This document shows positions 27,501 through 30,500 of a DNA stretch of 64,000 nt, one piece after another (position 1 is the stretch's first letter; each line of letters opens with the position of its first letter). Origin of the DNA: Liolophura sinensis (lineage: Eukaryota; Mollusca; Polyplacophora; Chitonida; Chitonidae); assembly GCF_032854445.1 (NCBI RefSeq), contig NC_088304.1, forward strand, positions 34,216,810 to 34,280,809. The letters run 5' to 3'. The position numbers were made by a program, and so were the translations under genes. The notes beneath the pieces were generated by a model, which saw only the letters and a list, made by a program, of their open reading frames with translations, searched no databases and had not been told where the DNA came from.

Positions 27501-30500
27501 ACATGTGGAGCTCAAGTGTAAATTCAACTTCTTTTGTTTTAGTTACTGAATGAACTGGGTAAGGCAATATTGATTGACGTCCAGGGAGATAACTCTAGCA
27601 GTGGCCAGCAGCTACAACTACCACAGGTAACTTACCATATTATATAATAGACGGCCCTTATTTACTCTGTTAACCATAGATATAGGGCTAGTAACATGGT
27701 AAAATTTATGTAGCCAGAGCAAAACTGGTATTATTATTATTAATGCTGTGTGTAATATTTGTCAATATGATATTTACATGTGCAGTGAAGAAGCAAGAGT
27801 ATGTTACATTGAGGTACATGTGCTCTGTTAAGTATTCTACCTTTCTCCAAGGATGTGAAAGTACAACATTAAGAGCTTTTATGATCCTGTTTAATTTGAT
27901 TTTTAAAGACAAAAATACATTTGCTTGGCTGGCCAATTTCAGGGCAATTTTCACCAATTAATGAATGCGCTCAGAATATTTTGAATAAGCTTCTCGCAAA
28001 CAGTTGAGAAGTTTGAAGAATTACGGGAGTGTACATGTAGATTCCCGTGCTTGCCATGCCAGTGTACATCCACTTGATTCTTCACTGTGAACATAATTGA
28101 GCTAGGAAAACACAAATTTGAACAGATATGTCTGGAGGAGAGAGGTTATGGAGCTATATGCTGATTTTTAGAAATTTTCCTGGTAAAGAAGACACTGGCA
28201 ATTCCTGAAGTTTTATTGTATTATGTGATTGACGTGTACTATTTCAGGCTCTGGACTTTTGGCTAGGGCTGTTGAATGGACCACTGCCCGCCCTACTCCA
28301 GTGCCATGCCCACCCTCCGGTCAAGGCCGCTCTCTGTGACTGTCTAGCAGACCTGGGGCCGGACATCTTTGAATTGTTACCTGTAAGTTGTGGCAGTTAC
28401 CTGTAAGTTGCGACAGTTACCTGTAAGTGATAGCAGTTACCTGTAAGTTGTGGCAGTTACCTGTAAGTTGTAACCATCACCAGTAAGTTGGGACAGTCAT
28501 CGATAATTTGTAAGTCACCTGTAAGTTGTAACAAATCACCTGAAGGTTGTAACAGTCACCTGTAAGTTGTGACAATTACCTATAACATGTGACAGTCACC
28601 TGTAAATTGTAATAGTCACCTGCAAGTTGTGACAGTCACCTGTAAGTTGTGACAGTCGCCTATAAGTTGTGAGTCACCTGTAAGTTGTAACCATCACCTG
28701 TAAGTTGGGACAGCCACCAATAATTTGTAAGTCACCTGTAAGTTGTAACAAATCACCTGAAGTTTGTAACAGTCACCTGTAAATTGTGACAATTACCTAT
28801 AACATGTGACAGACACCTGTAAGTTGTCACAGTCACCTGTATGTTGTGACAGTTACCTGTTAGTTGTGACGGGTCACCTGTAAGTTATGACATTCACCAG
28901 TAAGTTTGTGACAGTCACCTATAAGTTGTGACAGTCACCTGCATGTGTATAAGTTATCAAGTATAAATTGAAGTACTTATAAAAGTGAAAAACAAATTCC
29001 AGTTAAATTATTATTTGGATGCCTTGAACAGCAACACAGAAGATACCTGTACATGTAGAATAACAGCTGTCAGAATAGAATGATGTTGTTTGAAATGCAT
29101 TCTAATTGAAGAATATTCAGTGTTGTCTTTTGTGGATTCAGTGTTGTCTGTTGTTAATTCAGTGTTGTCTGTTGTGAATTCAGATCAGTGATTTTTGAAA
29201 AATTTAAAATATAGCCTTCTCACATGTAAGTCATTTATGGTGATGTTCACAAGTATGTATATTCCCAGTGCCTGACTTTACCTTTTCTCCCATCCCCCAG
29301 GTCCCTAATCGCATGTTGTGTGTGACCCTTGCCCTGGGGCTGGTGAATGATGATGACTGTCACGTCAGAGCCGCTTCTGTCAGGTCACTCGGTGTCTACA
29401 GCCTCTACGCCGTTCTAAGGGAGGTAAGTCAAGATGGTGCTTGAAAGATATGTGTGTGGAGCGGAAGAACTCAGTCTGGTTGTTAACAAATGATACTTGG
29501 CCACAAATCATGCGCTGTCAGTCATCAGGAATTTCAAAAATACGAAATGACATGTTTTCATTTGTTTACAACATCTTGTGAACATCTGGCATGACTTATC
29601 AGTAGCTTTAAAGTAAACATTAACAGTCTGACAAAATCATTGCCATTCAAAGCGATTGGGCAAAACACTCCCGTAAACTCTTTTTGTGTACTTATTTGTT
29701 TTTTGTTTTTTTTGTAGTACCATCAGAAATATTTGAATTACGATAACATATAGTAACCTTTTTGGATCACATCTTAGTGACGTCACATCCAATTCTTCTG
29801 TAAGATTTTCCCATATCTGTGCATGGAAGATTTTAAAAACAAATGTTTAAGCTATGAACTATCTTGTTACCAATCTGTTATGGTTTGATTTATTTTTAGG
29901 TGCTCAAAATGTGAAAACTTTTGGAAAATAGAGTCTCAAAAATCCACAAATACAAAATGGTTGCATTTGTGGAATTTCTTGGCAATGAAAAAAAATGTAA
30001 AAAAAAAAAAGATATGTAGTTTAAATTATTTCTCGATGCAGTTCTTGGCTTTTATTTGATTCAAACTTAATTTTGGAATCTCTGTATGCACATTTTAAGT
30101 CAGGTTAAGGACCCAGGGTCAGTGGTTTTCTCCGGGTTCCGCACAGCTTACTTCATTCATAAACCTTACTGCATGCTATCAGTGAAATATCATTGCATAT
30201 GACTTGAAATTCCAATCAAATAATCAATAAATACTGGAATCGCAGTCAAAGTTTCCTCATTCAAACCAATTCTTGTGAAATGTGTTTTGTTCCTTTAATG
30301 TTTAGTCAGTGGAACTGTTAGTCTGAAACATCAAAAGCAATCATTATAACTGGTTTTTGTTTTGCAGGATGTGTCTTTCATAGCAGACAGTGCCAATGCT
30401 GTCCTCAACTGTTTGTCAGATGGTAACCTCAATGTTAGAGCCAAGGCTGCCTGGTCACTGGGAAACTTGACTGATGCCCTGGTGTTAAACAAGTAAGCAG

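Follow-up and report, generated by a model that had tools for sequence, protein, structure and literature searches.

A 20-bp minisatellite that takes in the putative 5' splice site of a HEATR6-like exon

The window analysed here (the whole 64,000-nt stretch of DNA) carries on its plus strand an ordered series of tblastn matches to human HEATR6, running from 10831 to 37029. The query was a human protein sequence that did not come from a database record; these matches support the identification of the gene as HEATR6 in the original prediction. Elsewhere in the window, an Ion_trans domain (PF00520, E 1.4e-11) lies at 54879-55412, in a region that may resemble the Hv1 proton channel, and the minus strand at 44399-44788 holds an open DVTDNKSD-like acidic repeat, encoded by a 24-bp tandem repeat (44496-44602, 4.5 copies), for which no Pfam family was found. 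Tandem repeats make up 18% of the window, which points to a genome rich in minisatellites. SINE-like and TGAG-rich stretches may give the window a mollusc-like character; a literature search on such sequences found no paper. ARAGORN, run with the bacterial code, detected no tRNA genes in the window, no RNA family passed the Rfam gathering thresholds in 27000-30000, and an exact 32-base pattern searched for a viral source had 0 matches among viral contigs.

The HEATR6-like exon that concerns us here (28248-28382, Table 1) is the 12th homology block found. Its earlier numbering as exon 15 is not established. Upstream of it, the interval between 23727 and 28248, which also holds a 67-bp array (see below), contains no block for some 30 residues of the human query. 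Read as ALDFWL...FELLP, the exon ends in phase 0. The tblastn match to the following exon (29301-29423) extends a few residues into the intron, with one gap there, and the two exons joined together yield 83 residues that align with the human HEATR6 query without gaps (45.8% identity, E 1e-23). Because this spliced product aligns gaplessly, 28382 is the most likely end of the upstream exon, which closes with Leu-Pro, as does the corresponding part of the human query.

This putative exon end falls within the first unit of a tandem array, which the original prediction had placed at 28377-28945 with about 28 copies of a 20-bp unit. The array was recovered both by TRF (28379-28941, period 20, 28.2 copies) and by wrap-around alignment to the consensus ACCTGTAAGTTGTGACAGTC, which resolved 28 full units of about 20 bp, preceded by 3 bases and followed by 10 bases of partial units. 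As had been proposed, the unit straddles the exon/intron boundary, with 7 exon and 13 intron bases, the first unit consisting of the last seven coding bases of the HEATR6-like exon, GTTACCT, followed by the donor GTAAGTTG. The motif GTAAGT occurs 17 times in the array, namely at the true donor and at 16 downstream places, in line with the "more than a dozen" predicted; 15 of these (true donor counted) are in register and two, at 28510 and 28727, are out of it, so that many but not all units (15/28) keep an in-register GTAAGT. Longer identical stretches are also frequent, CCTGTAAGT being present 13 times and the 12-base ACCTGTAAGTTG 11 times, true donor included. A 21-base unit pattern allowing up to 3 mismatches had 17 matches in the window, every one within the array, against 0 expected from 100 shuffles. 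Along the unit alignment, units 1-5 all carry GTTACCT/GTAAGT (the slash marks the splice site), and GTCACCT prevails in later units.

The array also has a higher-order structure, detected by TRF at 28379-28939 as a period of 217 (2.6 copies). Mean identity between units reaches 0.862 at a lag of 11 units, compared with 0.764-0.792 at lags 1-10 and 12-15, and this single peak marks one 217-bp duplication, best seen in the first 137 bp of the block, where its two copies differ by 6 mismatches (8 more occur over the next 58 bp). The 217-bp repeat of the original prediction reflects this one lag; the continuing expansion read from it is not shown, since the units of this one haplotype share a mean pairwise identity of only 0.784.

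Table 1. Coordinates of the array, of its parts and of the flanking HEATR6-like exons in the window.
Feature	Position	Strand	Basis
HEATR6-like exon upstream of array	28248..28382	+	tblastn with the human HEATR6 query, E 4.9e-8; translation
20-bp donor minisatellite, 28 full units	28376..28946	+	TRF and wrap-around alignment
Last 7 coding bases GTTACCT, inside repeat unit	28376..28382	+	sequence, unit alignment
True 5' splice site GTAAGTTG, inferred	28383..28390	+	gapless 83-residue alignment after splicing to 29301
In-frame TAA on read-through, formed by CTG-TAA of unit 2	28404..28406	+	translation
11-unit (217-bp) higher-order block, two copies (28459-28675, 28676-28895)	28459..28895	+	lag-11 identity peak
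Next HEATR6-like exon (VPNRMLCV...), preceded by acceptor CCCCCAG	29301..29423	+	tblastn, E 1.7e-5; spliced alignment

The description of the downstream copies as a ladder of near-identical decoys is supported. Each unit was scored as a donor, as the original prediction had suggested, here through the predicted energy of its duplex with the U1 5' end. The true donor scores -5.4 kcal/mol, and 14 of the 27 other units are predicted to pair equally well or better, the remaining 13 being weaker. Moreover, the true donor is the second weakest among the 16 HEATR6 donors (in a list where one entry, 10941, was placed two bases too early), and CCT, not NAG, precedes its GT. With so many units of equal predicted strength and such a weak true donor, pairing does not explain a use of the first copy, and the weak exon side makes the exclusive use of this copy not obvious. 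A further point against such use is that, when two equal 5' splice sites are both occupied, the downstream one tends to be favoured; a literature search on U1 double occupancy of 5' splice sites found no paper on this effect. At least ten downstream sites equal the true donor over the 12 bases of ACCTGTAAGTTG, so that any preference among them must stem from position and exon context and not from U1 pairing, which makes the array a clean natural experiment in how 5' splice sites are chosen.

The predicted consequences of using another copy are uniform. Read-through past the true donor meets TAA after seven sense codons, within the roughly ten codons originally announced. The first decoy (28403) would, when joined to the acceptor at 29301, add 20 nt, shift the frame and lead to a stop, and the other 15 downstream GTAAGT are predicted to give an early stop because all of them include the TAA at 28404. 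The earlier claim that most alternative ends soon hit a stop therefore extends to all 16 downstream GTAAGT.

We consider it likely that the array is a neutral minisatellite which originated at a 5' splice site, and that the exon side keeps splicing on the first copy. A stretch of 20 bp, comprising the final 7 bases of the exon and the first 13 of the intron, may have been duplicated by replication slippage or unequal exchange, after which the array would have extended into the intron. The first copy alone adjoins the exon and its enhancers, which would be why the spliceosome selects it, and transcripts spliced at later copies would acquire a premature stop and probably undergo nonsense-mediated decay. 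Gain or loss of units inside the array would be nearly invisible to the protein, since units 1-5 share GTTACCT/GTAAGT, so that the exon would end in the same way after any exchange among them. Two known cases serve as precedents for such a seeded minisatellite, the amphioxus globin and Adh3 "mirages", whose splicing is regular, and the human ABCA7 array, whose first unit provides the canonical donor (both discussed below).

An improbable alternative is that selection maintains the decoy ladder as a set of regulated poison donors, which would divert part of the transcripts to stop-containing forms and so tune HEATR6 output. The uniform early stops and the 14 units whose predicted U1 pairing is at least as strong as the true donor's would fit this idea, as would ABCA7, where retention of one unit brings in a stop and longer arrays go with lower expression, although unit retention did not vary with array length (PMC5954066). 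Against it, mean conservation in the donor columns of the unit alignment (0.881 for columns 4-9) is hardly different from that of the other 14 columns (0.872), as expected without such selection, and U1 pairing strength has been lost in 13 of the 27 other units. In column conservation, selection on the decoy donors is not apparent in either direction.

It is still less probable that the array came first, i.e., that a minisatellite or other repeat was already present and supplied the end of the exon. The inclusion of the last 7 exon bases in the unit, together with an exon side that is atypical among HEATR6 donors, would be expected in that case. Against it, the protein alignment continues without gaps across the junction and the Leu-Pro common to both proteins is a weak argument for a boundary that existed first and gave rise to the array; the query was not a database record, and two residues are weak evidence. 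An assembly error at the exon boundary seems very unlikely. Tandem repeats are easily misassembled, and one amphioxus mirage was indeed wrongly assembled in the draft (PMC3087553), but units as divergent as these (0.784) are not what would result if a single short unit had been collapsed or stuttered during assembly, even if the copy number could still be wrong. Finally, we reject as extremely improbable a structural element in which a hairpin in each unit presents or hides the donor or drives expansion, because a 5-bp stem, like the GUCAC/GUGAC that the consensus could form around the donor, also arises in 344 of 3000 shuffled consensus units, the unit-by-unit pairing (113/134) is reached by 1870 of 2000 shuffled-partner controls, and the 631-nt fold is not stronger than shuffles (z +1.09, with 16 of 20 shuffles folding at least as well).

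Other repeats in the window are linked to donors, and we regard them as a lead rather than a result. Another HEATR6 donor, at 23728, has an array of 47 copies of a 67-bp unit (23733-26883) starting at intron position +6. We also considered that this array might contain its donor, as the 20-bp one does, and rejected the idea since no clear match of the donor flank to the unit could be seen by eye, leaving abutment only. On the minus strand, the 3' end of a COQ5-like exon (PF01209) and its donor lie in a perfect 33-bp duplication (5071-5137). Either of the two resulting donors, 5105 and 5072, would keep the reading frame when joined to the acceptor at 3388, and a switch to the second would lengthen the methyltransferase region by 11 residues. 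The same strand carries, in or beside a COQ5 intron, a reverse transcriptase fragment (3363-3701, PF00078, E 7.2e-11).

Array left ends fall within 7 bp of 2 of the 16 HEATR6 donors, a proximity with a naive probability of 0.005 in a test chosen after the fact, on an array list merged by hand from TRF rows and in a window of which 18% is tandem repeat. A local 14-mer test found a near repeat (at least 13 of 14) at 1 of the 16 HEATR6 donors and at 90 of 600 random positions, which indicates that nearby repeats as such are common in the window; the COQ5 duplication escaped this test (best 9 of 14), since its two donors are followed by different intron sequence. Three cases lie in one window, and the repeats neighbouring the 20-bp array suggest that minisatellites may arise at exon edges repeatedly. 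That 5' splice sites are preferred birthplaces of minisatellites in this genome is a tentative idea to which we give limited credence; if true, donor-anchored arrays would reflect a genome-wide process and reveal how the splicing machinery stays with the first donor when many are equal. A separate repeat at 48357-48844 has a 165-bp unit in 2.9 copies, each with CAG/G and an AAG/GYAAGT-like stretch.

The original prediction knew of no named system like the HEATR6-like array, yet objects of the same kind are already known, in the amphioxus mirages, the ABCA7 intron-18 VNTR and IFI6/6-16. Mirages are tandem duplications of exon/intron boundaries that combine regular splicing, confirmed by RT-PCR for those of globin and Adh3, with length instability (PMC3087553), and in the PGBD5 mirage the first repeats adjoin the splice sites (PMC3902484). 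The hosts in these accounts are all cephalochordates. Like them, the HEATR6-like array is a minisatellite-like duplication of a boundary with splice signals in many, not all, copies. The Adh3 mirage, with units of 10-72 bp, is of similar kind to the 20-bp array, whereas two globin mirages have fewer and longer units (about 150-160 bp). For molluscs, a literature search gave, among the matches listed, one abalone paper with an intron minisatellite, in passages that are silent on any splice boundary (PMC6905558). Passages of another paper treat tandem repeats solely as a matter of assembly (PMC2206037). In the potato RdRp gene, an intron was gained by tandem duplication across a boundary (PMC4974935). 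That duplication also takes in a splice boundary but, unlike the present array, it was a single large event that created a new intron, and no new intron is seen here.

Two of the known systems are human. The IFI6/6-16 donor minisatellite reportedly has a 12-bp unit and stays in frame. As in the HEATR6-like array, repeat units after the exon supply several donors, although those of the latter are candidates only; in IFI6, two downstream units are used and isoforms are made (PMC4526556), whereas use of the HEATR6-like decoys is predicted to give stops, and no in-frame isoform of the IFI6 type is predicted for any of the 16 downstream GTAAGT. The ABCA7 VNTR has a 25-bp unit, with 23.7 copies in the reference and about 12-427 in people; its first GT serves exon 18 as canonical donor, and exon 19 is skipped more as the array lengthens, besides the one-unit retention mentioned above (PMC5954066). 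Although sequence and gene are unrelated, the HEATR6-like array likewise begins at an exon edge, holds the exon's own donor (to judge from the homology-based exon end, the first unit supplies the canonical one) and has a unit of similar size whose length is not a multiple of three, so that retention of one unit shifts the frame. The ABCA7 VNTR is described as starting with the intronic GT, while the HEATR6-like unit also includes 7 exon bases. Polymorphism, one-unit retention and exon-19 skipping have been measured for ABCA7. In its anatomy, the array is closest to ABCA7 and the mirages. What is new is the gene, the hints of a wider tendency in the neighbouring arrays, and possibly the phylum: if the host is not a cephalochordate, boundary minisatellites extend more widely than the amphioxus and human cases.
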